Positions 3,791-26,362 of a DNA stretch of 26,845 nucleotides are shown here, piece by piece. The position numbers and the translations under genes are program-made. The notes below the pieces were generated by a model. It saw only the letters and a list, made by a program, of their open reading frames with translations, did not search any database and was not told the DNA's origin. The stretch is from a virus: the IMG/VR virus record IMGVR_UViG_3300032088_002388, positions 1 through 26,845 of that record. One strand, 5' to 3'. Within the stretch, counting starts at the first letter, position 1; each line of letters begins with the position of its first letter.

Positions 3791-4056
3791 TGCAATTCTT
3801 TCGTAATGTTAAAGATCTAATCGTTAAATTTTGGCGATGGATATTAAGTTGGTTCGAAAACCACCAATATCTTTATGTATCTCATAATCAATATAATTCT
3901 GAAGGTGAGATCATAGACGTACTTGAAAAGAAATTTGAAGTACGTAAATTTTATAAGCAAACTCAAAAGCATATGAAATTTAAAACAATGGAAGGCCATG
4001 TTGTTGAACTTAAAACTGCAACACCCATGGATTATATGACGGAGACTATAGACTAA
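3790..4056 (+). CDS. Small conserved phage protein with aromatic amphipathic N-terminus
   Basis: 88 residues. Residues 1-22 (FFRNVKDLIVKFWRWILSWF) form an aromatic amphipathic or membrane-binding helix; the remainder looks like a small beta domain (KKFEVRKFYKQTQKHMKFKTMEGHVVELK in part). It sits directly before the spanin-like pair and is coupled to both neighbours by TAATG overlaps, so a role at the membrane during lysis is possible but only inferred. Confidence 0.65.
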   Translation: MQFFRNVKDLIVKFWRWILSWFENHQYLYVSHNQYNSEGEIIDVLEKKFEVRKFYKQTQKHMKFKTMEGHVVELKTATPMDYMTETID

Positions 4057-4439
4057 TGCAACAAATATTGATAGGAATTATATTAGTTTTAGGTTTAGGC
4101 GGTTATTGGTTATACAACGAAAACCAAACACTAGCTGCAAATAACCTAGCGCTAGAAGGTGCAGTTGAAGAGCAGAAAGCTGCATTCAATGCAATGAAAG
4201 AATCTTTCGAGAAACAAGGGCAAGCCTTGCAGAATATGTCTCGAAAAAATGCAGAAATAGAAGCAGAAAAAGCCGAGTATTTGGCCATATTTGCTAGACA
4301 TAATTTAGATATGTTGGCCATTAAAAAACCTGGTCTTATTCAAAACAGGTTTAATAATGCTAGTCAACTAGTGATGGAGGGATTAGAGGATGACACTGAG
4401 AAACTTTACAGTATTGACACTCCTAATAGCGATAACTAG
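4056..4439 (+). CDS. Probable inner-membrane spanin (Rz-like)
   Basis: 127 residues. A single N-terminal membrane segment (about 4-19, ILIGIILVLGLGGYWLY) is followed by a long charged coiled coil (about 25-85) that would lie in the periplasm. This is the classic i-spanin layout: spanins join inner and outer membranes and drive outer-membrane disruption at the last step of lysis of Gram-negative hosts. The next gene, a lipoprotein, starts inside this one in another frame (overlap 4390-4439), a typical Rz/Rz1 arrangement. Assigned from architecture and context, not sequence similarity. Confidence 0.7.
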   Translation: MQQILIGIILVLGLGGYWLYNENQTLAANNLALEGAVEEQKAAFNAMKESFEKQGQALQNMSRKNAEIEAEKAEYLAIFARHNLDMLAIKKPGLIQNRFNNASQLVMEGLEDDTEKLYSIDTPNSDN

Positions 4440-4935
4440 TGGTTGTTCGCTAATACCAAGTAAAAAGGTTGAGATCATATCAAAGCCTATTGAAATAGAA
4501 ATAATGCAACCCGCTCTACCTAGAGCAGTTGACTTAACAGCACCAAAATGGTACGTAGTATCAGAAGCTAAAATAGCAAATCCATGTGTAGCTACAATTT
4601 CCTTTGAGCCTAAGAAGTTTGACGAAAAGGGTGTAGAGAAACTAAAAAGACCTAAAACATGTGCAAAAGAAGATACAGAAAATCCTGATTGGCCAGATGG
4701 ATATACGTATTTAGATAGATTTCTAGATGAAATGAAAGAACAAAATAACGGAGAGATTGTTTTCGTTGCTACTACGATTGGTGATTATAAAGTAATGGCA
4801 GAAGATATGCAAGAACTTAAAAGGTATATCAAACAATTAGGCGAAGTAGTAATATACTATCGTGACGTAACAATGACTGACGGCCAAAAAGGCGCAGCAG
4901 TTGGAATTAAGGTGAATAAAAATGAAAACAACTAG
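4390..4935 (+). CDS. Probable outer-membrane lipoprotein spanin (Rz1-like)
   Basis: 181 residues with a lipoprotein signal: basic N-terminus, hydrophobic stretch VLTLLIAITSGC, and lipobox Cys19. After the Cys come Pro-rich segments and a small alpha/beta C-terminal domain (EIVFVATTIGDYKVMAEDM, then ELKRYIKQLGEVVIYY). Similar lipoproteins follow the i-spanin in T4-like marine phages. At 181 residues it is long for an Rz1 protein, so the C-terminal domain may do more than bridge membranes. Starts 50 bases inside the i-spanin gene with GAGG just upstream; overlaps the lipase gene by 14 bases. Confidence 0.7.
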   Translation: MTLRNFTVLTLLIAITSGCSLIPSKKVEIISKPIEIEIMQPALPRAVDLTAPKWYVVSEAKIANPCVATISFEPKKFDEKGVEKLKRPKTCAKEDTENPDWPDGYTYLDRFLDEMKEQNNGEIVFVATTIGDYKVMAEDMQELKRYIKQLGEVVIYYRDVTMTDGQKGAAVGIKVNKNENN

Positions 4936-5680
4936 AATGAAAGATGACAGATCTCAAATGGAGAGGGCTTTAATTGCAGCTAAATTGTCAGCAATTGCAT
5001 ATAAAAACGAAAAACCTGCAATAACTGCAGCTAAAAAGTTAGGTTTTGCTTGGGTACAATTAATCTCCAAAGGTGGAGCAGAAGTATTAATAGCTAAAGA
5101 TCGTAATGATCTTTGGTTTGCATTTAGAGGTACTGAACCTTCAAAATTAAATGATGTTATGGCCGATCTTAAACTTGCAAAGCAAGCAGCTGTAGCAGGT
5201 GGAAAAGTTCATTCTGGATTCCAAGAAGAAGTGAATGATTTATGGATGGACATTTTAAAAGAATTAGAACACAATGCACAATTAAAAGTTAAAAAAGATG
5301 TGTATATGACAGGTCATTCTTTAGGAGCTGCAATGGCAACAATCGCCGCAACTCGATACGAACCTGTAGAATTATTTACTTTTGGATCTCCAAGAGTAGG
5401 TGGACCTAAATTCATTAGGAATATTAATTGTCCACACCTTAGATTTATGAACAACAACGATATCGTCTGTAGAATCCCACCTGCATGGTTAGGATTTAGA
5501 CACCATGGGGAAATGATCTATTTTAATAAAGATGGTAATCAACAAGCTAAACCCACATGGGGCGATTTATTTTATGGTATACTAAACTCATGGAAAAGAT
5601 TTAAATTCTTTGATGGTATAGTAGATCATGGAATGCCAAATTATGTTAAAGCAATTACTAAAGCTTCGAAAGAGCAGTAA
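4922..5680 (+). CDS. Class 3 (alpha/beta hydrolase) lipase-like protein
   Basis: 252 residues. The lipase class 3 signature is complete: FRGTE at about 68-72 (oxyanion region), nucleophile elbow TGHSLG with Ser133, Asp180 in NNNDIVCRIPP, and His236 in VDHGMPNY, in the order and spacing of the family. No signal peptide, so it would act in the cytoplasm or reach membranes after holin opening. Start chosen at ATG 4922 with AAGGTG at 4909-4914. Its place right behind the spanin-like pair suggests it hydrolyses host phospholipids during lysis; a role in lipid metabolism is the alternative. Substrate cannot be read from the sequence. Confidence 0.85.
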   Translation: MKTTRMKDDRSQMERALIAAKLSAIAYKNEKPAITAAKKLGFAWVQLISKGGAEVLIAKDRNDLWFAFRGTEPSKLNDVMADLKLAKQAAVAGGKVHSGFQEEVNDLWMDILKELEHNAQLKVKKDVYMTGHSLGAAMATIAATRYEPVELFTFGSPRVGGPKFIRNINCPHLRFMNNNDIVCRIPPAWLGFRHHGEMIYFNKDGNQQAKPTWGDLFYGILNSWKRFKFFDGIVDHGMPNYVKAITKASKEQ

Positions 5681-6057: not shown

Positions 6058-8361
6058 ATGCAAATAAATGTCACGAAACGAGATGGCAGTTTACAAGAAT
6101 TTGATCTCGACAAAATACATAAAGTTTTAGAATGGGCCACTGATGGATTGACAGGCGTTTCTATATCCGAAATAGAATTAAAATCTAATATACAATTATA
6201 TGATAAAATTCCAGCTTATGATATGCATGAGCTACTTATTAAATCTGCATCAGAATTAATATCAGAACATACCCCAAATTATCAGTTTGTAGCAGCAAGA
6301 TTAATCAACTATAAAATTCGAAAGGAAGTTTATGGAGGATATGATCCATGTTGCTTACAAGATCTTATTAATATTAATATCGAAAATAAAGTATATGATG
6401 AACAAGTATTACTAAGATACACAAAAGAAGAACTAAAAGTTGCCAATGGATATATAAAACATGACAGAGATTTTACCTTTACTTATGCAGGAATGGAACA
6501 ATTCAGAGGTAAATATTTAGTTCAAGATCGATCTACAGGTGAAGTATACGAAACACCACAAATGCTATATATGATGATAGCATTAACATTATTTGAAAAT
6601 ACTCCCAATACATCAGAAAATGGTATTAATTGGGACAGAATGAAATGGGTAAAAGAATTTTATGACGCAATCTCACAATTTTACATATCATTACCGACTC
6701 CAATTATGGCTGGTGTCAGGACCCCAACTCGACAGTTCAGTAGTTGTGTTCTTATTGAATCCGGCGACAGTCTCGATTCTATTAACGCTACTTCAACTTC
6801 TATTGTCAAATATATAAGCAAAAAAGCAGGTATTGGCATTGGAGCTGGAGGAATCAGAGGAATAGGAGCTCGAATAGGAGACGGTTCAGTAGTACATACT
6901 GGATTAATTCCATTCTTAAAATATTTCCAAGCTGCAGTAAAATCATGCTCACAAGGCGGAGTAAGAGGTGGAGCTGCAACAGTGTATCTACCATTATGGC
7001 ATTATGAATTTGAAGATCTTGTTGTATTAAAAAACAATAAAGGTGTTGATGAAACTCGTGTAAGACATATGGATTATGCATTTCAATTTAATAAATTGAT
7101 GTATGAACGTTTACTCGAAGGTGGTAACATTACTTTCTTTGATCCAAATGATGTTCCAGGTTTATACGATGCATTCTTTAATGATCAAAGAGAATTTAAA
7201 AAGCTCTATGAAAAATATGAAAGAGCATATTCGATAAGAAAGAAAACATTACCAGCACTTGAAGTATTTCAAGCTTTTATTACTGAAAGAAAAGATACCG
7301 GTAGAATTTATGCAATGAATGTTGATCATGCAAATGATCATGGAGCATTTATTGAATCTGAAGCACCAATTAAAATGTCAAATTTATGTTGTGAAATTGA
7401 TTTACCAACAACTCCATTAGAATCACATGATGATCCAAACGGAGAAATATCATTGTGTACATTAAGTGCTATTAACTGGGGATTAATTAATGATCCAAAA
7501 GATTTTGAGAAATATTGTACTCTTGCAGTAAGAGCATTAGATAACTTATTACAATATCAAGATTATCCTGTAAAAGCTGCATATCATGGAACTATGAATC
7601 GTAGACCTTTAGGTGTAGGAATTATTAATCTTGCATATTTCCTTGCGAAAAGAGGTCTTAAGTATGATGAATCTGCATTTGAAACTGTAGACGAGTATGC
7701 AGAAGCATGGTCGTATTATCTAATTAAAGCATCTGCAGATTTGGCTAAAGAAAAAGCTCCATGTAGTAAAAATAAAGAGACAAAATATGCCCGCGGGATT
7801 CTTCCAATTGATACATATAAGAGTGCAGTAGATAATTTAGTGGAGTCAAAAGAGCGTATGCCATGGGACGATTTAAGAGATCAACTCAAAGAAACTGGTA
7901 TTCGAAACTCAACTCTAATGGCATTAATGCCTGCGGAAACATCTGCACAAATTAGTAATAGTACAAATGGTATTGAACCTCCACGAGCTTTAGTATCATA
8001 CAAACAATCAAAGGACGGAGTTATGGCTCAAGTCGTTCCAGGCATTGTTCAACTGAAAAATAAATATGATCTTCTTTGGGACCAAAAATCACCAGAAGGT
8101 TACTTAAAAATATGTGCTATTTTACAGAAGTATATTGACCAAGGAATTAGTGTTAATACTTCGTACAATCCCGAACATTATGAAGAAAATAAATTGCCAA
8201 TGTCAGTTATGATTGGTGATTTGTTAACTGCTTATAAGTTCGGACTTAAACAACTATATTACTTTAACACATATGATGGTGCTGGAGAACATATAGAAGA
8301 ACTTCCAGAATTGGAACAAACCCTTAACGACGATGAAGATTGCGAGAGTTGTATTATATGA
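6058..8361 (+). CDS. nrdA: Ribonucleotide reductase class Ia, alpha (large) subunit
   Basis: 767 residues, full length. NrdA reduces ribonucleoside diphosphates to deoxynucleotides, here to supply phage DNA synthesis. Seen: ATP-cone-like N-terminus (KRDGSLQEFDLDKI, residues 7-20); active-site Cys230 (QFSSC), the NLCCE motif with Asn442, thiyl-radical Cys444 and Glu446; Cys467 (GEISLC), forming the redox pair with Cys230; the MPAETSAQISNSTNG loop; and the C-terminal shuttle CESC (Cys762/765). These match E. coli Cys225, Cys439, Glu441 and Cys462 in order. Transcribed from the conserved promoter at 5996. Overlaps nrdB by 4 bases. Confidence 0.97.
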   Translation: MQINVTKRDGSLQEFDLDKIHKVLEWATDGLTGVSISEIELKSNIQLYDKIPAYDMHELLIKSASELISEHTPNYQFVAARLINYKIRKEVYGGYDPCCLQDLININIENKVYDEQVLLRYTKEELKVANGYIKHDRDFTFTYAGMEQFRGKYLVQDRSTGEVYETPQMLYMMIALTLFENTPNTSENGINWDRMKWVKEFYDAISQFYISLPTPIMAGVRTPTRQFSSCVLIESGDSLDSINATSTSIVKYISKKAGIGIGAGGIRGIGARIGDGSVVHTGLIPFLKYFQAAVKSCSQGGVRGGAATVYLPLWHYEFEDLVVLKNNKGVDETRVRHMDYAFQFNKLMYERLLEGGNITFFDPNDVPGLYDAFFNDQREFKKLYEKYERAYSIRKKTLPALEVFQAFITERKDTGRIYAMNVDHANDHGAFIESEAPIKMSNLCCEIDLPTTPLESHDDPNGEISLCTLSAINWGLINDPKDFEKYCTLAVRALDNLLQYQDYPVKAAYHGTMNRRPLGVGIINLAYFLAKRGLKYDESAFETVDEYAEAWSYYLIKASADLAKEKAPCSKNKETKYARGILPIDTYKSAVDNLVESKERMPWDDLRDQLKETGIRNSTLMALMPAETSAQISNSTNGIEPPRALVSYKQSKDGVMAQVVPGIVQLKNKYDLLWDQKSPEGYLKICAILQKYIDQGISVNTSYNPEHYEENKLPMSVMIGDLLTAYKFGLKQLYYFNTYDGAGEHIEELPELEQTLNDDEDCESCII

Positions 8362-16239: not shown

Positions 16240-17658
16240 ATGTACGATTATAACTATATCACAGAAGCCAAAGAAAAGAACATGAAAATGTCTGTAATTA
16301 TATTGGCTAATTCACTGGACGATGGAACAGCAGCAAAAGTTATGGCTGATGTATGTTCGTTTAATGATATAGAATGCAATTTAATTGATATTGATAAAGC
16401 ATATTTAGGTGATGCCGATATTGAACTGAGAAAAGTTGATATTCGTAATATCGATGGAGAAGGTAAAAAGGTTACATGTAATATAGATTCAACAATCGTA
16501 TTTACAAGAGGTGGAGCAATTGCGACTCAGGTAGGACAAGCTTTAGTATCTACATTACAAACCGCGGGATTCTTTATGGTTAATGATCTTGAATCCATGA
16601 TGTTATGTGATAATAAAATGGCAACTACAATTGCTATGAATAGATCAAATGTTAAAACACCGCGCACAGTTATATTGAACAACGATGAAAGTATCGAATT
16701 TGCTCATAAACAAATTGGTAGTAAATTTCCTGTAATTGTTAAAACTTTGACCGGAACGCAAGGTGTAGGTGTAACAAAAGTTGATTCGATGAGTTCTTTA
16801 AGGTCTGTATGTCAATCTTTATGGAAGTTTGATGCACAGCTGTTGATGCAAGAATTCTTAGAAATGGAATATGATATCAGAACTCTTGTAGTTGATGGTA
16901 AAATATTAGGTGCAGCAAAAAGAATCACGGCTAAAGGTTCTGAATTTAGATCAAATGTTCATCAAGGCGCAGATACGGTTCCTTATATATTAAAGGAAAG
17001 GGAAATTGAAATAATTCTTGCAGCTTCACGAGTAAGTGGAGGATATTATGTTGGTGTAGATCATTGTATAGTTGATGGAGAGATTTATATTTTAGAGGTA
17101 AATGGATCTCCTGGTGTAAAGTCACATTATAACGCATATGATTTAGATACACAAAAATCTGTAGGTAAAAAATCAGACAATAAATTATTTGATATATTTT
17201 TAAAATATTTGTTAGAAGAAAATAATAGAACTAAATTCTTTAGACTTGAAGCAGGTTTTATTGAAACAATTATCCTTGAAGGTATGGAAGATGATCCAAT
17301 ACGAGCTAAACTTGATACCGGCAATGGAACAAATGCATCAATGTTAATGGTTGATGATCTTAAGGTAAAAGATAAAAAAGTATTTTGGAAAAAGAATGGT
17401 AAGAAATTTGAATCTGATCTTATTGGTTTATCTAAAGCAAGACATATGGAAACGGTCGATGAAAGACCAGTTATTGAACATACAATAACATTTAATAATA
17501 GATCCTATCTAATACATTTAGGATTATCGCTTAAAAATACAGCATCAGAGATGTTGTGTAATAGAGATTTAATAACACTTTTTGGTGTATCTGTAAATCC
17601 ATCTAAACGATTTGCTTTAACACCATACACGGCAAGAAATGACAACTACGACGTTTAA
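16240..17658 (+). CDS. RimK-like ATP-grasp ligase fused to an aspartic-protease-like (RimB-type) domain, with prohead-type tag
   Basis: 472 residues. About 15-325 is a RimK-like ATP-grasp ligase: KTLTGTQGVGV (ATP-binding loop, 168-178), QEFLEMEYDIR, and EVNGSPGVK (286-294) with metal-binding residues. RimK adds glutamates to ribosomal protein S6. About 335-465 is a second domain starting LEAGFIETIILEG with KLDTGNGTNAS (Asp359-Thr-Gly), the hallmark of the RimB/ATP-dependent protease family usually encoded next to rimK. The N-terminus MYDYNYITEAKEKN contains I7-T8-E9 before A10, like the T4 capsid-targeting tag. A late promoter lies five bases upstream. Inference: a virion-associated protein-modifying enzyme; the target is unknown. 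Confidence 0.88.
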   Translation: MYDYNYITEAKEKNMKMSVIILANSLDDGTAAKVMADVCSFNDIECNLIDIDKAYLGDADIELRKVDIRNIDGEGKKVTCNIDSTIVFTRGGAIATQVGQALVSTLQTAGFFMVNDLESMMLCDNKMATTIAMNRSNVKTPRTVILNNDESIEFAHKQIGSKFPVIVKTLTGTQGVGVTKVDSMSSLRSVCQSLWKFDAQLLMQEFLEMEYDIRTLVVDGKILGAAKRITAKGSEFRSNVHQGADTVPYILKEREIEIILAASRVSGGYYVGVDHCIVDGEIYILEVNGSPGVKSHYNAYDLDTQKSVGKKSDNKLFDIFLKYLLEENNRTKFFRLEAGFIETIILEGMEDDPIRAKLDTGNGTNASMLMVDDLKVKDKKVFWKKNGKKFESDLIGLSKARHMETVDERPVIEHTITFNNRSYLIHLGLSLKNTASEMLCNRDLITLFGVSVNPSKRFALTPYTARNDNYDV

Positions 17659-18805: not shown

Positions 18806-19243
18806 ATGGCCTATTCGCAGAAGGTAATAGACAGATTTAATAATGTATTAAATTCTCCAGAGAAATTCTCTGTAGGCCGATTCGATCCAAAAGAATCCAA
18901 TGTAGCAACCGGAATGACAGGCGCACCCGCGTGTGGTGATGTCATGAAGCTACAACTGAAATTGAATGACAACGAAGAAATCGTTGATGTTAAATTTAAA
19001 ACTTATGGATGCGGATCCGCTATCGCATCTTCTTCATTATTCGTTGATATGCTAATGGGTAAAACCATAGAAGAGGCAAAACTTGTTAAAGACAAAGATA
19101 TTGCCGAAATATTAGAACTTCCGGCTATCAAACTTCATTGTTCTGTATTAGCTGAAGATTCGATTCGTCAGGCAATAAGAAATTGGGAAGATAAAAAAGC
19201 CCATAGACAGCACAATGGAGAACCTAATGATCGAGTTGACTAA
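18806..19243 (+). CDS. iscU: IscU/NifU-like Fe-S cluster scaffold
   Basis: 145 residues. All three cluster-binding cysteines are present: Cys43 in APACGD (with Asp45), Cys69 in YGCGSAIASSS, and Cys112 in KLHCSVLAED (with His111). This fits a working IscU scaffold, which receives sulfur and iron and passes [2Fe-2S] clusters on. The LPPVK-type chaperone-binding motif is replaced by LPAIK (about 105-109), close to the usual form. It is followed by an A-type carrier gene overlapping by 17 bases, so the phage carries two parts of one pathway and would rely on host IscS and chaperones. Confidence 0.93.
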   Translation: MAYSQKVIDRFNNVLNSPEKFSVGRFDPKESNVATGMTGAPACGDVMKLQLKLNDNEEIVDVKFKTYGCGSAIASSSLFVDMLMGKTIEEAKLVKDKDIAEILELPAIKLHCSVLAEDSIRQAIRNWEDKKAHRQHNGEPNDRVD

Positions 19244-19544
19244 TGAAGCAATTCAACAATTACTCAAACAAACCCAAAATGAGGGGAATGATACTGTCAG
19301 AATTGGTTATTATCCTGGCGGTTGCAACGGTTTTAAATATGTTATCGCTTTTGCTGATACAGTCACTGGCGATGATCATATCATAGACTACGGAAAGTTT
19401 CTTATAGTAGTAGAAACTGGCCAACTTCACAATTTTACTGGATTAACCTTAGATTACATTACTGAGGGACTCAATTCAGAATTCAAATTCATAAATCCTA
19501 ATGCAACTGCGTCCTGTGGTTGTGGAGAATCAGTAGCCTTTTAG
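19227..19544 (+). CDS. A-type Fe-S carrier (IscA/ErpA/HesB-like)
   Basis: 105 residues from ATG 19227, chosen for the GGAGA at 19218-19222 over ATG 19215. The three conserved cysteines are present: Cys33 in PGGCNGFKY and Cys97/Cys99 in ASCGCGES, with the usual spacing. A-type carriers bring clusters to target enzymes. Next to iscU it probably supplies host or phage Fe-S proteins late in infection; possible clients cannot be read from this window, although the YkgJ-like protein is a candidate metal protein. Confidence 0.92.
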   Translation: MIELTNEAIQQLLKQTQNEGNDTVRIGYYPGGCNGFKYVIAFADTVTGDDHIIDYGKFLIVVETGQLHNFTGLTLDYITEGLNSEFKFINPNATASCGCGESVAF

Positions 19545-19564: not shown

Positions 19565-19572
19565 TATAAATA
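19565..19572 (+). promoter_or_regulatory. T4-type late promoter (TATAAATA), head of the curli-type operon, 5 bases from AUG
   Basis: A perfect octamer, then GTACT, then the ATG at 19578. No other promoter or terminator is evident before 26362, so this element probably drives the whole CsgF-CsgG-curlin-FecR-cyclase run late in infection. Confidence 0.78.
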
Positions 19573-19577
19573 GTACT

Positions 19578-19871
19578 ATGGAAATATTCGAACTTATAAT
19601 GGAGGTAGGTACTCCTATCGCCGGCTCATTAGTTATGGGCTATTTTATATTTTTGATATTAAAACAGATACTAGGAGGTCTCGTTGACTCAATTAGTACT
19701 CTTACTATGTTTACAAAAAGCTTAGAAACAAGAGTTACTACAATGAATAATGAGATTGTAAAAATAGACTTATTGGTAAGTAGTGCTTTAGAATTAACAC
19801 CGCCAGTAGACAGAGTAGCAAGAGCGTCAAACTTTGTTGAAGACGGTAAAATTGATGCTAGGAGGGATTAA
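19578..19871 (+). CDS. Small membrane protein A, paralogous to the next gene
   Basis: 97 residues from ATG 19578, five bases after the late octamer; the frame extends to 19557 but the promoter excludes that start. One membrane segment at about 10-33 (GTPIAGSLVMGYFIFLIL) and a coiled coil (about 40-70). The block G-P then MGYFI, then K-I matches the next protein, so the two are likely tandem paralogues. T4-like marine phages often carry such a protein; role unknown, holin-like or envelope-related. Confidence 0.75.
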   Translation: MEIFELIMEVGTPIAGSLVMGYFIFLILKQILGGLVDSISTLTMFTKSLETRVTTMNNEIVKIDLLVSSALELTPPVDRVARASNFVEDGKIDARRD

Positions 19872-20200
19872 TGGAAGTAAGCCAAGATCCTACAATTGTA
19901 GCGTTAATAAATGATTATGGGTTCCCAGTCGTTTTGGCTGTGGGTATGGGATATTTCATATATTATGTGTGGAAATTTATTTCAGATGAATTGGAACCTA
20001 AAATAGAAGAAATGCATTTTGCATTAATTCGATTAATTGATCAAATACGAATGCTTGATCAAGATATGATTAGATTACAACAAAAAGTAAATGTTGTACT
20101 TGAATACAGAGAGCGACAAAAATTCATCGAAGATCTCGAAGAAAAAGAAGCTCTTATGGAGAAAAAAAATGGAAGAAATAAAACCACTAATAAGTCGTAA
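19871..20200 (+). CDS. Small membrane protein B, paralogous to the preceding gene
   Basis: 109 residues, TAATG overlap with its paralogue. A membrane segment at about 17-38 (YGFPVVLAVGMGYFIYYVW) is followed by a coiled coil (ALIRLIDQIRMLDQDMIRLQ and on) and a charged tail. I recognise this as a widely conserved T4-like phage protein of unknown function. A membrane anchor plus cytoplasmic or periplasmic coiled coil suits assembly or lysis roles. The csgF-like gene starts 32 bases inside its end. Confidence 0.78.
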   Translation: MEVSQDPTIVALINDYGFPVVLAVGMGYFIYYVWKFISDELEPKIEEMHFALIRLIDQIRMLDQDMIRLQQKVNVVLEYRERQKFIEDLEEKEALMEKKNGRNKTTNKS

Positions 20201-20729
20201 TTCTAAAATAGCCATATGGGCTTTTATAGTTATTTTTTTACTTGGATCCGCTGAAGATATATATGGCGATGAATTAGTACATGAATTTAAAAATCCTTCG
20301 TTCAGCGGAGTAGGAACCTCATCTCATTATCTTACAATTGAGAATCAGGAATTTAGTAGAAGACAAGCAATAGCTGAAAAAATAGAGAGTGCATTACAAG
20401 CAGCACAAAGAGATGCAGAAAATACAACATTAGCAAAATTTATGCGTAATCTCGAATCGAGAATTTATGCTCAATTATCTAAACAGCTTGTAGAATCATT
20501 ATTTCAATCATGTACAGCTGAAGCAATAGCTGCAGGAACATGTACAGAAACAACATTTGGTAGTTTTGTCCTAGAAGGAAATACAATTACATATCAAAAA
20601 ACGATATGTGATGAAAGTCTATGGGCTTGTACTCAGGGTGAACAAGTTATTGTTATGACTATTGTTGCTGAAGATGGAACAGAAACACAAATAGTAATTC
20701 CAATTGGCGCTGGATCGACTGGTGGATAA
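20169..20729 (+). CDS. csgF: CsgF-like curli assembly protein
   Basis: 186 residues from ATG 20169 (GGAG upstream); the longer frame to 20091 overlaps the previous gene and is unlikely. A hydrophobic N-terminal segment (AIWAFIVIFLLGSAEDIYG) is a signal peptide or anchor. The mature N-terminus LVHEFKNPSFSG followed by SHYLTIEN matches CsgF, whose N-terminal F-NP-F-G segment inserts into the CsgG channel and forms a second constriction. The rest is a helix and a beta region with two Cys pairs (SCTAEAIAAGTC; CDESLWAC). It is longer than E. coli CsgF (138 aa). csgG follows directly. Confidence 0.85.
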   Translation: MEEIKPLISRNSKIAIWAFIVIFLLGSAEDIYGDELVHEFKNPSFSGVGTSSHYLTIENQEFSRRQAIAEKIESALQAAQRDAENTTLAKFMRNLESRIYAQLSKQLVESLFQSCTAEAIAAGTCTETTFGSFVLEGNTITYQKTICDESLWACTQGEQVIVMTIVAEDGTETQIVIPIGAGSTGG

Positions 20730-21684
20730 GAAGCTTATATTATTAATAGGAGTCCTTCTTATGCAAGGATGTGCTTCTATTGTCCCGCCAGGAGGATTAT
20801 CAGCAACAAATTGTAATCCTGCATTAAATTTAGCGTGTGTAGAATCACCAGAAGTTGTTGAGTTACCTACACATGAAGAATTAAGAAATTTACCACCAGC
20901 AGAAAAACAAATAGTCGTAGCAGTATACGGATTTCCTGATAAAACAGGACAAAGAAAACAAAAAGGAAATGCTGCAATGTTCAGTACAGCAGTATCACAA
21001 GGCGGTGATACAATGCTTATTGACGCATTAAAAAATGCAGGAAAAGGACAATGGTTTAGAGTAGTAGAACGCGTAGGAATAGATCATCTTACAAGAGAAC
21101 GTCAAATCGTTCGTACTACAAGAGAACAATATGGTGAAAAGGATGAAACTGGGTTAGCCCCGCTTCTTTTCGCAGGGATCATTCTTGAAGGAGGTATCAT
21201 TGGATTCGATACTAATATCGAGACTGGGGGAATGGGAGCTCGAACTCTTGGTATTGGTTATTCACAACAATACCGAAGAGACATAGTAACTGTTTCATTA
21301 AGAGCTGTCAGCACATTGACAGGTGAGATTTTACTAAATGTGCAAACGTCAAAAACCATTTTGTCGATCGCTGATGGCTATGACGTATTTAAATTCGTTG
21401 ATATGGACACTCAACTTGTAGAAATAGAAGATGGGATGACAGAAAACGAATCGGTGACACGGTCGCTTCGCTCAACAATTGAAGCAGCTGTGTTAGAAAT
21501 GATATACCAGGGGGAAGAATTAGATTTTTGGAAAATAAATTGGCCAATGAAACAAATCATTGAAAATAAAGTCGAACAGATTATAGACGAAGCTGAAATT
21601 ATATATACTAAGCCAATAGAAGATCCAGAAAACATTCCGGAAGAAGTTATTACCCCTGAAACAATAGAGGAAATAAGAGGATGA
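20722..21684 (+). CDS. csgG: CsgG-like outer-membrane curli secretion channel lipoprotein
   Basis: 320 residues from GTG 20722 (TTG 20704 is an alternative). Lipobox LMQGC puts the lipid on Cys17. The core matches E. coli CsgG closely: VAVYGFPDKTGQ, MFSTAVSQGGDTMLIDAL, WFRVVERVGIDHLTRERQIVR, GGIIGFDTNIETGGMGAR, STLTGEILLNVQTSKTILS. CsgG forms a nonameric outer-membrane pore that exports curlin subunits. By ungapped alignment from memory, the constriction Phe56 is kept (MFSTAV) while Tyr51 and Asn55 are Gly and Met. The acidic C-terminal tail (IEDPENIPEEV...) is an extension. Overlaps csgF by 8 bases and the curlin-like gene by 4. Confidence 0.95.
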   Translation: MDKKLILLIGVLLMQGCASIVPPGGLSATNCNPALNLACVESPEVVELPTHEELRNLPPAEKQIVVAVYGFPDKTGQRKQKGNAAMFSTAVSQGGDTMLIDALKNAGKGQWFRVVERVGIDHLTRERQIVRTTREQYGEKDETGLAPLLFAGIILEGGIIGFDTNIETGGMGARTLGIGYSQQYRRDIVTVSLRAVSTLTGEILLNVQTSKTILSIADGYDVFKFVDMDTQLVEIEDGMTENESVTRSLRSTIEAAVLEMIYQGEELDFWKINWPMKQIIENKVEQIIDEAEIIYTKPIEDPENIPEEVITPETIEEIRG

Positions 21685-22409
21685 ATATTTTTAAAAGATA
21701 TATCGCATTCGCTCTTTTATTATGCCCCGTAGTTGTGTTCGCTGGAGCCAATGATAACAAAATTCTTTTAGATCAATCTGGAGATACACTAAGGCTATAC
21801 GTAGACCAAATCGGTTATGGTAATAAGCTTTGTGGAACTATCTCAAGTGCAGATTGTGCTACTGATTGGGTTTTGACTGGTAACACTGTCACAATGGATA
21901 TAGATATGATAGGTAACTTGAACCAAATCTTTGGTCCAACACTATTTGATTCTACTGATGTTGACTTAAAGTTAACTGGAAATAGTAACATATGGGATTG
22001 GAACGTAGGTTATGGTGGAAGTGCTGATTCATCTGTAATGGATGTTGACATAACCGGTTCTTCAAATACTTTCGATATAGATTGGGGTTATACAGCTTCA
22101 GCTGAAAGATTGGATTTTGATTTAGATATAACCGGTGGATCAAACGTATGGAACATTGATATTAATGCTGATGATGTAACTTGGAATGTGGATGTTGTAG
22201 GAAGTTCAAATAACTTCTTAACAGCACAATCCGATGGTGCAGATAATTCATTAACAATGGAATACATAGGTTCAAATGGAGATATCGATATTATTCAATC
22301 ATCTGGTACATGCCCAACTGGCGTGAGTGGATGTTATGGAATAATAAACGCGGATTTTGACACAGAGAATGGCATTGTTGACATTAAACAAAAAGATACT
22401 GGCGACTAG
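21681..22409 (+). CDS. Curlin-like repeat protein 1, candidate secreted amyloid subunit
   Basis: 242 residues with a signal peptide (IAFALLLCPVVVFAG). The body is made of about seven units of the type hydrophobic-Asp alternation, G-x-x-N, then another strand: QIGYGNK, MIGNLNQ, LTGNSNI, ITGSSNT, ITGGSNV, VVGSSNN. This is the strand-loop-strand pattern of curlin (Q-G--N) with Asp and Trp in place of many Gln. Directly after csgG with an ATGA overlap, it is the natural substrate of the channel. Amyloid formation is inferred, not shown. Four Cys and an acidic composition are unusual for CsgA. Confidence 0.82.
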   Translation: MNIFKRYIAFALLLCPVVVFAGANDNKILLDQSGDTLRLYVDQIGYGNKLCGTISSADCATDWVLTGNTVTMDIDMIGNLNQIFGPTLFDSTDVDLKLTGNSNIWDWNVGYGGSADSSVMDVDITGSSNTFDIDWGYTASAERLDFDLDITGGSNVWNIDINADDVTWNVDVVGSSNNFLTAQSDGADNSLTMEYIGSNGDIDIIQSSGTCPTGVSGCYGIINADFDTENGIVDIKQKDTGD

Positions 22410-23514
22410 TCTATTACTGATTAGTTCAACAGCTTTTGCCAATGATGTTGGCAATATAACTGAACACAAGGGCAGTGGTGGAATTACTCGTGAAGGTGAG
22501 TCATTTGCCACTGATCTTGGTTTAGGCGTTATTGCAATGGATCATATTGAAACAGTTAATGGTCGATTAAAATTAGATTTTATTGATTCTTCTGTACTTA
22601 GATTAACTGAACATACGGAAGTTACATTATACGAATATTATTACAATTCTAAAACCAAAGATGGTGGAATTGGAATGAAAATGGTCAGTGGTACTGCAAG
22701 ATTTTCTACTGGCAGATTAGGTTTATTACCTAAAGAAAATATAGTAATTGATACTCCAACCGCCACAGTGGGCGTACGTGGGACGGATTTTACGACTTCA
22801 GTTGATGAATTGGGAAGAAGTTTAGTAATTCTCCTTCCGGAAACTGAATGTACTATAGATGGTGATTGTTCACCGTCAGGAGAAATTACGGTAACAAATG
22901 AGGGCGGTGTAGTAGTCCTTACAGAAGCATATCAAGCCACAATGGTGTCAAGTTATGATACAGCACCAGCACAACCAGTTACGCTTCAAAATATAAATTT
23001 AAATATGATTGACAATATGTTTATTGTTAATCCACCAAAAGAAATACAGGATCAACAAGAGGAAACTCAAGCTAATACTGCGGTCAATTCTAATGGCCTA
23101 CTTGATTTCACTGAGCTCGATACTGATTATCTGGCCGATGATTTTTTAGCAGAAGATGATTTAGAATTCAATGAACTCGATATGGATTTACTTGATGTCG
23201 ACTTTTTACAAGACATATTGGTTGCTTTAGAAGAAATAAATATTTTAAAAAATAAACAAATTTTATCATCTGCAGGTGGTTCCGGAAATATAGTTGGTAC
23301 TGCTTTAGGATTTGATAAAAATACACAATATAATACAATAATAGATCAAGGTGCTGGTCAAATTTGGTTTTATAGAGAAGTAAATGGAGTTATATCGGTA
23401 AGAATTCCGATAGATTCAAATACAACAGTGGAGAGTGAAAATGAAGGTAAGAAAAATCTTATCAGTGTTGGCGATGGTCAGTCTGTCGTTATCATCATAC
23501 GTCAAAGCGGATAA
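22369..23514 (+). CDS. FecR-domain periplasmic protein
   Basis: 381 residues from ATG 22369, preceded only by a weak AGAG; other start codons upstream are possible. Signal peptide ILATSLLLISSTAFA, then a typical FecR domain at about 30-140 (GESFATDLGLGVIAMDHIETV, VNGRLKLDFIDSSVLRL, then IVIDTPTATVGVRGTDF). FecR domains are periplasmic and signal envelope or ligand state. An acidic Leu/Asp repeat (about 245-285) and a C-terminal beta domain (GDGQSVVIIIRQSG) follow. The gene overlaps its neighbours by 41 and 74 bases in other frames. FecR proteins often accompany CHASE2-cyclase genes in bacteria, as here. Confidence 0.88.
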   Translation: MALLTLNKKILATSLLLISSTAFANDVGNITEHKGSGGITREGESFATDLGLGVIAMDHIETVNGRLKLDFIDSSVLRLTEHTEVTLYEYYYNSKTKDGGIGMKMVSGTARFSTGRLGLLPKENIVIDTPTATVGVRGTDFTTSVDELGRSLVILLPETECTIDGDCSPSGEITVTNEGGVVVLTEAYQATMVSSYDTAPAQPVTLQNINLNMIDNMFIVNPPKEIQDQQEETQANTAVNSNGLLDFTELDTDYLADDFLAEDDLEFNELDMDLLDVDFLQDILVALEEINILKNKQILSSAGGSGNIVGTALGFDKNTQYNTIIDQGAGQIWFYREVNGVISVRIPIDSNTTVESENEGKKNLISVGDGQSVVIIIRQSG

Positions 23515-24265
23515 TACAAACTCAGTTATCATAAGTCAAGTATCAGGTGTATCAACAGATAACTTGAATTTGAATATTGAACAGATAGGTTATAATAATA
23601 AAGTCAATCTTTCTATTGCTCACGATAATAACACACTACTCTTTAAACAAGAAGGTAATAATAACAAAATATCTTGGGTTGACTATTGGGGATCAGGATT
23701 AGCTTATGGTGGTGATTTAGACGGTTCTGGTAATAATTTACATTTTGAACAAAAGTGTACAAGAGGAGCCGGTAATTGTTCTCAATCAGTTATAGGATTT
23801 CATATTAATCATCCAAACAACGTAGTTCGTTGGGGTCAAGGTACAATATTGACAGATATAAATGATACAACTTTTTCAAACGATGGAGATGAAGGTGGTG
23901 GCCATAGATTAAATTTAGATATTCATGGAGAAGATAACAAACTAGTAGGTTATCAAAGAAATGGTAGTTTAAATAATTATAACGGACACACAGCTACAAT
24001 TTATTATTATTCAGATAACAATGAATTTTTTGTTAAACAAGAAACAGATGGTGCTAAGACACTTTCATTGATAACATACAATGACGGAAATACAGGTACA
24101 ATCACACAATCTGGTAATGGAGCTCATAATGCTACAGTAACTTTGACTGGTACAAATCCCACTACATTTAATTTAACTCAAACTAGTAATACAGCTCAAT
24201 CATATTCATTAACTCAAAATTGCCAAACATCAGGTGGATGTTCGGTTAGTGTTACACAAAACTAA
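23441..24265 (+). CDS. Curlin-like repeat protein 2, candidate secreted amyloid subunit
   Basis: 274 residues from ATG 23441 (GGAGAG upstream), with signal peptide ILSVLAMVSLSLSSYVKA. Curlin-type units are clear near the start (IEQIGYNNKVNLSI; FKQEGNNNKISW) and end (ITQSGNGAHNATVTLTG; LTQTSNTAQ; SLTQNC). The middle (about 85-200) is Gly/Asn/Asp-rich and less regular. It is closer to bacterial CsgA/CsgB than protein 1 because it keeps Gln. It starts 74 bases inside the FecR gene. The pair may act as major and minor (nucleator) subunits, by analogy with CsgA/CsgB; that is inference. Confidence 0.85.
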   Translation: MKVRKILSVLAMVSLSLSSYVKADNTNSVIISQVSGVSTDNLNLNIEQIGYNNKVNLSIAHDNNTLLFKQEGNNNKISWVDYWGSGLAYGGDLDGSGNNLHFEQKCTRGAGNCSQSVIGFHINHPNNVVRWGQGTILTDINDTTFSNDGDEGGGHRLNLDIHGEDNKLVGYQRNGSLNNYNGHTATIYYYSDNNEFFVKQETDGAKTLSLITYNDGNTGTITQSGNGAHNATVTLTGTNPTTFNLTQTSNTAQSYSLTQNCQTSGGCSVSVTQN

Positions 24266-24429: not shown

Positions 24430-24506
24430 TGAGAAGAAGATTTTTATATTTTAAATATGGATTTCCACAATCGAAGAAAGGGTCTATTCTAGACATATAC
24501 GTATGA
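24429..24506 (+). CDS. Mini-ORF (25 aa) coupling to the cyclase gene
   Basis: ATG 24429 overlaps the previous TAA by one base, and its TGA overlaps the cyclase ATG (ATGA at 24503-24506). The peptide is basic (MRRRFLYFKYGFPQSKKG). Without it the cyclase start would have no nearby ribosome binding site, so this ORF may serve mainly for translational coupling. Confidence 0.45.
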   Translation: MRRRFLYFKYGFPQSKKGSILDIYV

Positions 24507-26362
24507 AATATTTAACAAGCATTTGGACAGTTATAGCTGTTATTGCATTTGGATTGTTTCTTAAAATATCCAATGTTCCTCAAATTGAACAAATCCAGCT
24601 TATGGGATTTGACGCAAAAATTCAATCACTACCCAAACAAAAAGACGAAGATGTAATTCTTTATGAAATTGGAGAAGGTACATTAGAAAAATGGGGTCAA
24701 TTTCCATTACCTCGTCAATACTATGCCCAAATGATATCTGACTTAATAAATGCAAATGCCGAAATTAAGGCTTTTACGATTATGTTCCCAGAGGCCGACA
24801 GGTTTGGAGGAGATCCAGCATTTGAATCGTGGATTAAAGACTCTGGAGTGGTTCTATCACAAAAAGCCGATCCTCGTGGAAGATCAGACGTAGCTCCATA
24901 TGTTGGAACTGCCATGAAAGGCGAAGGCGATCCTATGCAATTTCTTCAAGAATACGAAAAAATTCTAACAAATGTAGAAATAGTTGAAAGACATGCTTGG
25001 GGAGCAGGAATATCTAATGTAGCTCCAGAAGTTGATGGAATAGTACGTAAGTTTCCTTTAGTTGTACAAGTTAATGGTCAAAGATATCCATCATTATCGG
25101 TAGAAATTATTAGAGCTGAGAATCAGACAAAGGGTTATACAATTAATACTGATCCAGATCTTGGAATAGTAGATCTTTTTATACCACCAAAATTACATTC
25201 AAAAACAAATTCGGATGGAACAGCTTATATTAACTATTCAATAACGCACGATCGTTATGAAGCGGGAGTTGACACTCTTCCAGATCTTCGTGGGAAAACA
25301 GTTCTGATTGGTGTTTCGGCTCTTGGGATTGTGCCTGAGATTCTGACTCCGTTAGGGTTAAAGTTTCCCCATGAGATTCAAGCATCGGCTCTATCTTCGA
25401 TCCTTTCAGAGGATTCAATAATCCGTCCTTATTGGGCTGATTTGGCGGAAATAGGTCTAATTCTAATTGGGTCTCTGTTGATTCTTTCATGTGTTTATTT
25501 CTTTCCTGCGATAATCGGATTAGGCGCCTTTGGCGTTGTTGGTGCTGTAAGCTTCTATTTCTCCAGCTATTTTTGGACGAATTCACTATATCTCCTTGAT
25601 TGGACATTCGCTATAGTATTATATATAATAGTCTTCGCGCATGCAAGTTTTAATAACTTTTGGATCCAATTTAAATTAAGACAACAAATTAAAGGTCAGT
25701 TTGGTACATATCTTTCACCTGATATGGTGAATATGTTGATTAAAGATCCAAGTTTAATGAAGCTTGGGGGTGATAGAAAGGAAATGACATTTTTATTCAT
25801 GGATATATGTGGATTTACCCCAATATCGGAATATTATAAGAATAAAGATGATCCCGAAGGATTAGTAGAATTAGTCAATGAATTCCTCGATGCAATGACA
25901 AAAATCATTCTCAAAAATGGAGGAACAATTGACAAATATATGGGTGACTGCATAATGGCATTTTGGAATGCACCATTACCTTGTAAAAATCACGCTGAAA
26001 TGGCAGTTAAATCAGCAATGGAAATTGAAATAAAAGTAAATGAACTCAAAGAAATCTATAAAGAACGTGGTCTTCCTGATATCAATGTTGGGACTGGCAT
26101 TAACACCGGGGATTGTATTGTTGGTAACATGGGTAGTGAATCCAGATTTGACTATTCGGTTATTGGAGATGCAGTCAACCTTGCTGCTCGACTCGAGGCA
26201 ACTGCTGCCCGTCATGAATACATAGATTACAAAACTATCATCTCAAGCTTTACAATGAAACAACTCCCAGAAGGATATTTCTGTGAGAAGATTGGTGATA
26301 TCAAAGTAAAGGGTAAAGAAGAAACCATCTCTATATTCTCCCCTGGAATATACCGTAAGTAG
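24503..26362 (+). CDS. CHASE2-domain adenylate cyclase (class III)
   Basis: 619 residues. Layout: an N-terminal membrane segment (about 5-21), a periplasmic CHASE2 sensor (about 30-300), three membrane segments (about 316-381), and a cytoplasmic class III cyclase domain (about 425-605). Catalytic residues are in place: metal Asp434 (FMDICGFT) and Asp482 (DKYMGD), adenine-binding Lys478 and Asp556 (SVIGD), transition-state Asn559 and Arg563 (NLAARLE). Lys and Asp at the purine site favour ATP, so it should make cAMP. The sensor faces the compartment through which FecR and the curlin-like proteins pass. The part of the gene at about 25260-25560 is unusually GC-rich. Confidence 0.93.
   Translation: MKYLTSIWTVIAVIAFGLFLKISNVPQIEQIQLMGFDAKIQSLPKQKDEDVILYEIGEGTLEKWGQFPLPRQYYAQMISDLINANAEIKAFTIMFPEADRFGGDPAFESWIKDSGVVLSQKADPRGRSDVAPYVGTAMKGEGDPMQFLQEYEKILTNVEIVERHAWGAGISNVAPEVDGIVRKFPLVVQVNGQRYPSLSVEIIRAENQTKGYTINTDPDLGIVDLFIPPKLHSKTNSDGTAYINYSITHDRYEAGVDTLPDLRGKTVLIGVSALGIVPEILTPLGLKFPHEIQASALSSILSEDSIIRPYWADLAEIGLILIGSLLILSCVYFFPAIIGLGAFGVVGAVSFYFSSYFWTNSLYLLDWTFAIVLYIIVFAHASFNNFWIQFKLRQQIKGQFGTYLSPDMVNMLIKDPSLMKLGGDRKEMTFLFMDICGFTPISEYYKNKDDPEGLVELVNEFLDAMTKIILKNGGTIDKYMGDCIMAFWNAPLPCKNHAEMAVKSAMEIEIKVNELKEIYKERGLPDINVGTGINTGDCIVGNMGSESRFDYSVIGDAVNLAARLEATAARHEYIDYKTIISSFTMKQLPEGYFCEKIGDIKVKGKEETISIFSPGIYRK

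Follow-up and report, generated by a model that had tools for sequence, protein, structure and literature searches.

The stretch of DNA examined here, called the window, comprises 26,845 nucleotides (nt) of the virus record IMGVR_UViG_3300032088_002388, and carries towards its end a gene for an adenylate cyclase with a CHASE2 sensor domain. The gene closes a curli, or type VIII secretion, cassette that runs in the order smA, smB, csgF, csgG, curlin-like gene 1, a FecR-domain gene, curlin-like gene 2 and cyclase, all on the plus strand and mostly overlapping. This order is identical in the window and in the phages HTVC008M and Melnitz. A type VIII secretion module with FecR, a histidine kinase and an adenylate cyclase, of alphaproteobacterial affinity and spread through the ocean, is already in print for pelagiphages (PMC9599517), so that the finding is not the first of its kind and the window cyclase is one more copy. 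The published module (HTVC008M gp014-gp019; Melnitz genes 99-104) has the same genes, order and phage type as the window, whose cyclase is 40% identical to that of HTVC008M and 31% to that of Melnitz. The CHASE2 sensor, identified here in the window cyclase, is not named in that paper. The curli genes of pelagimyophages (PMC7029224) and of Melnitz (PMC9004378) have also been described; the word cyclase occurs in neither, and a word search of all three papers for CHASE as a domain found nothing, the word being an author name in the latter two. In the open-licence PMC literature no paper was found on an adenylate cyclase from phages or viruses, or on the combination of FecR domain, adenylate cyclase and RTX. 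The preliminary description of this DNA had called a CHASE2 cyclase unusual for a phage, a view that does not hold within this group, where the gene is common. It had also placed the cyclase after FecR; FecR does lie upstream, but a curlin-like gene intervenes (23435-24265), and the curli cassette (csgF, csgG and two curlin-like genes), the key to the probable cue, was omitted from that setting.

The cyclase gene is real, conserved and common in phages. At least 599 stretches of viral contigs encode a relative, which argues against a chance occurrence, and PHROG 35576 spans residues 1-614 (E 2e-166), so the protein belongs to a known phage family. Pfam recognizes CHASE2 on residues 18-328 (E 1e-31, 110.9 bits against a cut-off of 26.3) and Guanylate_cyc on residues 426-609 (E 8e-20, 71.6 bits against a curated cut-off of 21.9). 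The AlphaFold2 model (mean predicted local distance difference test score, pLDDT, 87.4; predicted template-modelling score, pTM, 0.64) has helices at residues 7-23, 312-333, 336-361 and 368-401. Hydropathy peaks lie at 4-22, 320-338 and 361-379, with an extra peak at 267-285 within the folded CHASE2 domain. The protein has the layout of a CHASE2 receptor cyclase, namely a first helix, CHASE2, further helices and a catalytic domain, with three of the four model helices matching hydropathy peaks. The four putative helices suggest one membrane span ahead of CHASE2 and three behind it. The catalytic part of the model superimposes on CyaB of P. aeruginosa (3r5g; template-modelling score 0.90 on the target, root-mean-square deviation 1.9, 36% identity) and also fits CyaC of S. 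platensis (1wc1), while the guanylyl cyclase Cya2 ranks high in the same structure search. The likeness to CyaB and CyaC, in fold and in sequence, concerns their catalytic domains; their sensor parts differ from that of the window cyclase.

Two sets of loci were compared. The viral set consists of 83 loci, 80 of them found through the cyclase (the best 80 of at least 599), together with the two annotated phages and the window. All 83 had a copy, and after six short ones were dropped, 77 full-length copies remained. The bacterial set holds the best 80 of at least 577 confirmed matches (L084-L163), found with search patterns taken from the catalytic domain; by title these are mostly Alphaproteobacteria, the best segment is 29-35% identical, and 18 aligned relatives are 32-37% identical to the window cyclase. 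In both domain trees the viral copies, 77 in all, group as a single clade separate from the 80 bacterial relatives, with a support of 1.0 for CHASE2 and 0.97 for the catalytic domain. Bacterial contamination, the outcome that a phylogeny was to expose, can be ruled out by the virus record, the phage-type genes of the window, the viral-clade cyclase and the viral PHROG. The intact reading frame, the Pfam domains, the PHROG and the viral clade thus agree with the earlier view of a phage-encoded membrane cyclase with a CHASE2 sensor.

The active site is well preserved. Residues D434, K478, D482, D556 and R563 are invariant in all 77 viral copies, N559 is kept in 76, Melnitz alone having Ser, and the corresponding D, K, D, N and R are shared by 80 of 80 bacterial relatives. 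We take D434 and D482 to be the metal-binding aspartates, K478 the Lys of the specificity pair, and N559 and R563 the transition-state residues. The adenine-side specificity position is seven residues before the catalytic Asn, which is S552 in the window; it is Ser in 76 of the 77 viral copies, aligns to a Thr of CyaB, and is Asp in Melnitz. In class IIIb adenylate cyclases, which are ATP-specific, a Lys is paired with Thr or Ser at this position. All 80 bacterial copies and 76 of the 77 viral ones combine Lys478 with Ser or Thr at 552, and by this class rule the pair is of the Lys/Thr kind and the enzyme class IIIb-like. The six residues listed in the preliminary description are therefore all conserved (N559 in 76 of 77), and the ATP-type active site appears intact, but D556 is the conserved Asp of a GD motif near S552 and not the adenine-side residue. 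The cyclase is probably active, and its product would be cyclic AMP (cAMP). It is improbable that the product is another one, such as cGMP or a pyrimidine cyclic nucleotide, or that the purpose is ATP use or nucleotide export through the CsgG pore. Such a product would suit the shortage of usual cAMP readers in most SAR11-family genomes and in the searched phage records (see below), and specificity is read from Lys and Ser alone. However, Lys478 is invariant and Ser or Thr stands at 552 nearly throughout, as in ATP-specific class IIIb enzymes, and the fits to CyaB and CyaC are good, though Cya2 also ranks high.

Both domains of the cyclase are under purifying selection, each with a dN/dS of 0.02-0.25 in the closest 25 pairs of the 87 that could be used. 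That the cyclase is degenerate cargo with no current role is very improbable and already largely refuted by these selection data. It could draw on Melnitz, which lacks the catalytic Asn, and on the 76 of 77 viral copies whose C-terminus holds fewer than 40 residues in place of the tail of about 80 found in the bacterial enzymes. Against it stand a dN/dS below 0.3 in both domains of the listed pairs, an active site intact in 76 of 77 copies, and hundreds of relatives. The Melnitz cyclase itself (L083 12001-14052) has a divergent catalytic domain and a bacterial-type C-terminal tail. Its CHASE2 domain is 57-59% identical to those of HTVC008M and L081, its catalytic domain 36-39% identical to theirs, and the latter still falls among the viral ones in the tree, on a long branch.

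The two domains of the cyclase have had different histories, and it is the sensor that follows the curli genes. Among viral copies CHASE2 varies much more than the catalytic domain does; with the four closest copies set aside, CHASE2 domains are 27-55% identical to that of the window and catalytic domains 62-89% (37% in Melnitz). Pairwise distances were compared by rank correlation in 48 full cassettes, those of the window, HTVC008M and Melnitz included; L002, whose FecR is split, was entered with the longer piece. CHASE2 correlates with FecR at 0.72, CsgF at 0.70, curlin 1 at 0.69, CsgG at 0.63, smA at 0.60 and smB at 0.58, and with its own catalytic domain at 0.10. The catalytic domain correlates with the remaining cassette proteins at 0.15-0.25. 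Its two halves agree with one another at 0.81, so the low correlation between CHASE2 and the catalytic domain is not noise, and a sliding window puts the break near residues 400-470. Partial correlations of CHASE2 with its partners, given the catalytic domain, are 0.57-0.72 (p 0.001, 999 permutations), and those of the catalytic domain with the partners, given CHASE2, are a weak 0.11-0.24 (p 0.002-0.057); since the loci are related, these p-values are a guide only. Mosaic pairs tell the same story from both sides, as L036/L039 have a dS of 0.03 in CHASE2 and 0.66 in the catalytic domain, and L014/L015 a dS of 0.28 and 0.01, respectively. By these comparisons of sequence distance, CHASE2 co-diverges with FecR, CsgG, CsgF and curlin, and the catalytic domain recombines separately. 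Evolution of the cyclase as one unit is ruled out by the correlations and the mosaic pairs. The downstream flank was considered as the source of the exchanged catalytic domains and gave no simple rule: L036 and L039 are 96% alike across both flanks, with the catalytic part as a differing island.

The features of the locus are collected in Table 1. The csgF gene is present in 49 of the 83 viral loci, and smA and smB in 48 of these, the remaining locus (L063) ending at a contig end. A second curlin-like gene was not found in 16 of the 48 full cassettes. Because the loci were found by their cyclase, the frequency of cassettes without a cyclase is not readable from them. For the window CsgF-like protein, a signal-peptide-like stretch follows ATG 20169 by eye. 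The exporter has a lipobox-like LMQGC, also by eye, and matches NCBIfam CsgG (E 2e-48, under that model's cut-off). Curlin-like protein 1 has no Pfam match and holds the position of the HTVC008M gene annotated curlin/CsgB; curlin-like protein 2 has no match in Pfam, PHROG or NCBIfam. Among the eight cassette proteins searched there is no CsgD, CsgE or CsgC, the other open reading frames (ORFs) of the window having been searched only in part.

Table 1. Cyclase, cassette genes and promoter motif in the window
Feature	Position	Strand	Remarks
CHASE2 adenylate cyclase	24503..26362	+	619 aa, ATG start, no internal stop
CHASE2 sensor domain, predicted periplasmic	24554..25486	+	residues 18-328; Pfam, hydropathy, model helices
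Class III cyclase catalytic domain	25778..26329	+	Pfam, CyaB alignment, structure match
TATAAATA, T4-type late promoter motif (putative)	19565..19572	+	smA ATG exactly 13 nt after the first base of the motif
smA, small membrane protein	19578..19871	+	PHROG 18771; listed from GTG 19557, ATG 19578 more likely
smB, smA paralogue	19871..20200	+	PHROG 18771
CsgF-like	20091..20729	+	Pfam CsgF E 9e-9; true start probably ATG 20169
CsgG outer-membrane curli exporter	20704..21684	+	Pfam CsgG E 8e-49
Curlin-like protein 1	21681..22409	+	NCBIfam CsgA E 0.002, weak, far under cut-off
FecR-domain exported protein, curlin-like C-terminal strand	22357..23514	+	Pfam FecR E 4e-11
Curlin-like protein 2	23435..24265	+	position of the Melnitz curlin repeat protein; C-terminal strand in relatives

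The FecR protein may be the link between the fibre subunits and the cyclase. A C-terminal strand of the form [IVLF]x[IVLF]xQ is found in 61 of 62 FecR ORFs; the one without it is the first piece of the L002 FecR, which is split. Among the curlin 1 proteins 39 of 54 close with this strand, among the curlin 2 proteins 47 of 53, and in four other cassette families none of 281. Such an end strand on FecR points to contact with the fibre subunits, as a sign and not as a test. The FecR model, of middling quality (pLDDT 74), matches 4m0n and 6ovk, both anti-sigma signalling domains, at E 1e-4 to 6e-4; its match to the cell-surface anchoring domain 5ix9 is weak (E 0.03). Contact of FecR with CHASE2 would be the next step of the same relay.

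The cassette is also preceded by a motif, TATAAATA, which we take to be a T4 late promoter motif. It occurs in the window at chance number (6 observed, 5.4 expected), so the spacing to ATG is the evidence. Four of the six sites (10413, 14443, 16227 and 19565) have an ATG exactly 13 nt from the first base, each at a different gene. Near the start of smA, within a stretch of about 120 bases, TATAAATA-N(3-7)-ATG occurs in 25 of 48 related cassettes. Across the 83 viral loci an ATG stands at the 13-nt spacing in 48 of 240 TATAAATA sites, with 0 to 22 at the other offsets from 8 to 59, while the control motif TATAAATT, different by one base, has the same 13-nt peak (19 of 155); the loci are related and the counts are not independent. 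In the 25.8-kb stretch of HTVC008M, three of four sites are 13 nt ahead of an annotated start, that of csgF included, and in the Melnitz stretch one of six. The position rule of T4-type late promoters places the transcript start relative to the motif; if TATAAATA is such a promoter, transcripts would begin at the ATG, and leaderless late mRNAs are predicted. Late expression of the cassette is therefore plausible, and to this extent the earlier placing of the cyclase late in infection fits the late-type motif ahead of smA. In print the motif used is TATAAAT (PMC9004378). The motif with its ATG at 13 nt was also observed at 6267, 7549 and 18929(-) in L082 and at 19452(-) in L083.

The bacterial relatives have the domain order of the window cyclase, with the tail of about 80 residues as their own. 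Their neighbours include RTX and cadherin adhesins and HlyD/ABC exporters, in contrast to the curli genes of the window; profiles made from the phage proteins found neither CsgG nor CsgF in the 80 bacterial loci, nor any curlin or smA/smB of the phage kind. FecR domains occur in 33 of the 80; of the 69 loci that extend 2.5 kb or further upstream, 26 carry a FecR gene no more than 600 nt ahead of the cyclase. Four bacterial FecR proteins were scanned: three have RTX repeats, one of these also cadherin-like domains, and one has FecR alone; the one from L139 is encoded on the opposite strand. In 11 more loci the upstream ORF runs off the retrieved stretch, nine of these ORFs exceeding 1,200 amino acids; the one scanned of the nine (L113) has no Pfam match. 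FecR or HlyD is inside the locus in 52 of the 80, and neither in 28. A fusion of a cyclic-nucleotide-binding (cNMP) domain with HlyD lies directly upstream of the cyclase in four loci (L126 2753-7768, L141 6256-11271, L150 6251-10805 and L162 6264-10787), in genomes of 1.3-2.0 Mb, L126 and L141 being close relatives. Downstream are one or two small cNMP-binding proteins, PF00027 being confirmed for four of six; any cNMP match at all occurs in 8 of the 80. With the cNMP domain fused to HlyD, the reader in these four loci sits on the secretion machine, and each would be a type I secretion locus with a full cAMP circuit of its own. The neighbourhoods suggest a wider pattern, in which FecR and a CHASE2 cyclase report the export of surface adhesins.

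Two described systems come close. In Sinorhizobium meliloti the receptor adenylate cyclases CyaD1/CyaD2/CyaK have CHASE2, and a FecR-domain gene lies in the region, as in the window (PMC5498481); that cascade differs in its Crp-type reader Clr, and curli genes are unmentioned in the available part of the paper. The BiofilmReg operon of Burkholderia likewise joins an exported FecR-domain protein to a CHASE2 sensor, but its output is a histidine kinase and its FecR protein mostly has LysM (PMC5192318).

We favour, with somewhat better than even confidence, the reading that this class III, IIIb-like receptor adenylate cyclase is the output arm of a late-expressed phage curli cassette and senses the state of the curli. 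Late in infection the phage would make CsgG/CsgF pores and curlin-like fibre subunits. The exported FecR protein, with its curlin-like strand at the end, would monitor the export or assembly state of the subunits in the periplasm, contacting the CHASE2 domain. CHASE2 would relay the signal through the membrane helices to the cytoplasmic catalytic domain, which as a dimer would make cAMP from ATP.

Several points weigh against this. Linkage could produce the co-divergence: CHASE2 has the cassette on one side and the catalytic domain on the other, and if the conserved catalytic region were a recombination hot spot, the same pattern would arise with no protein contact. Melnitz has Ser in place of the catalytic Asn, and is said to be without fibre genes and to show no clumping (PMC9004378), although its GenBank record names two curlin repeat proteins. 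Near cyaD1 of Sinorhizobium, the FecR gene smc02177 is dispensable for signal perception (PMC5498481). No FecR gene lies directly upstream in 54 of the 80 bacterial relatives (six have no DNA there, nine a run-off ORF above 1,200 amino acids). A cAMP signal is also odd when most genomes of the host family, and eight phage records, yield no usual reader. It is conceivable, though unlikely, that the cyclase is active but not tied to curli, CHASE2 sensing another envelope cue such as lysis timing or superinfection and the gene co-travelling as a transfer unit. The ligands recognised by CHASE2 domains are not known (PMC5192318), exchange of the catalytic domain does not follow the cassette, and co-divergence is also expected from simple linkage. 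A functional tie is nevertheless favoured by the fixed gene order in viral loci with enough DNA, by a correlation that drops sharply inside a single gene, and by the FecR-adhesin neighbourhoods of the bacterial relatives.

A reader of the signal was sought in a SAR11 family. Cyclase relatives include those of HTVC008M, with a SAR11 host, and Melnitz, with an OM43 host. The SAR11-family sample holds 197 genomes from a larger group (0.6-1.6 Mb where shown), the family grouping resting on the search tool; G218, in the class draw, has four SAR11 16S probe sites with no mismatch. PF00027 was found in 12 of the 197, with no match in 185, and in 212 of 289 genomes of the class draw. RecA was found in 167 of the 197, so genome incompleteness costs about 15%. 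The cyclase family PF00211 was found in three of the 197, two over the cut-off and the third below. Both of the former are phage-type CHASE2 cyclases (phage profile E 4e-147 and 2e-196) on contigs shared with CsgG, and a CsgG search of the 197 genomes returned the same two genomes only (G308 contig C1 and G345 contig C11; L168, L169, L176, L177), a sign of phage DNA in host bins. The L168 cyclase is 34% identical to the window protein, and its downstream genes resemble window 4056-4935 by eye. The SAR11 family examined thus seems nearly without cAMP makers or usual readers of its own, by searches with PF00211 and PF00027. These counts sharpen the earlier question of a cAMP target in a host with few regulators, should the window phage infect such a host; the window tRNA-Ala was of no use for a host call (at most 82% alike SAR11-family tRNAs, and 84-85% alike two other phage records).

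Five PF00027 places were scanned. L165 and L166 are Crp/Fnr-type with a Crp-like helix-turn-helix, L164 is a short cNMP protein, L167 1-1830(-) (G308) a C39-type ABC exporter with a cNMP domain, and L174 1498-4089 (G425) joins cNMP to an acyltransferase and a GDSL lipase. The L174 and L167 proteins are possible cyclic-nucleotide readers in a minority of SAR11-family genomes. Of the 13 listed places, eight lie within frames about 870 amino acids long (one cut at 372), among which L174 alone was scanned and is not an exporter. It is decidedly unlikely that cAMP is read by the host, through rare Crp/Fnr-type or other cNMP proteins or through proteins that PF00027 misses. The cAMP-Crp-csgD scheme of E. 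coli, pointed to in PMC9599517, would be a model for it, and the 12 genomes with PF00027 and the five scanned places would supply candidates. The same paper finds CsgD lacking in the pelagiphages studied, and 185 of 197 genomes have no PF00027 while RecA is in 167; the frames of about 870 amino acids, too, count against it.

The phage itself is the other place to look. Eight phage records, of which two are complete genomes and the other six IMG/VR contigs of 101-139 kb, have no PF00027 match at E 0.1, and a cNMP profile made from bacterial proteins had no match in the ORFs of the 83 viral loci, which are stretches and not whole genomes. We consider it doubtful, but worth stating, that the phage installs a cAMP circuit that its SAR11-type host is without, the reader being a phage protein of an unrecognised receptor kind, with smA/smB as first candidate. 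If so, the virus would run a cAMP circuit complete in itself, in a cell that has none natively. The smA and smB proteins (window 19578-20200), paralogues of about 100 amino acids, open every complete cassette seen; neither has a Pfam or NCBIfam match, and no kinase domain was seen in smB. A histidine kinase gene is said always to precede the module in the podophages of PMC9599517, and the two small membrane proteins of the window may correspond to the 'histidine kinase' named ahead of csgF in that paper.

The role of phage curli genes is debated in print, as pore, lysis timer or means of sibling capture (PMC9004378, PMC7029224). A linked sensor and cyclase give this question a measurable output, cAMP in infected cells, and a host family mostly without cAMP makers and usual readers would offer the test an almost clean background. 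Phage curli function becomes testable through what is added here: a sensor diverging in step with the cassette, the curlin-like strand of FecR, the FecR-adhesin and cNMP settings in bacteria, and the rarity of readers in the SAR11 family examined.

Other genes of the window were observed in passing. Just ahead of the cassette (18806-19544), a NifU-like Fe-S assembly gene overlaps a PHROG 17776 gene that is IscA-like by eye. Position 16240-17658 encodes a RimK-type ATP-grasp protein with a further C-terminal region, and 4922-5680 an esterase/lipase-type gene of PHROG 21992.

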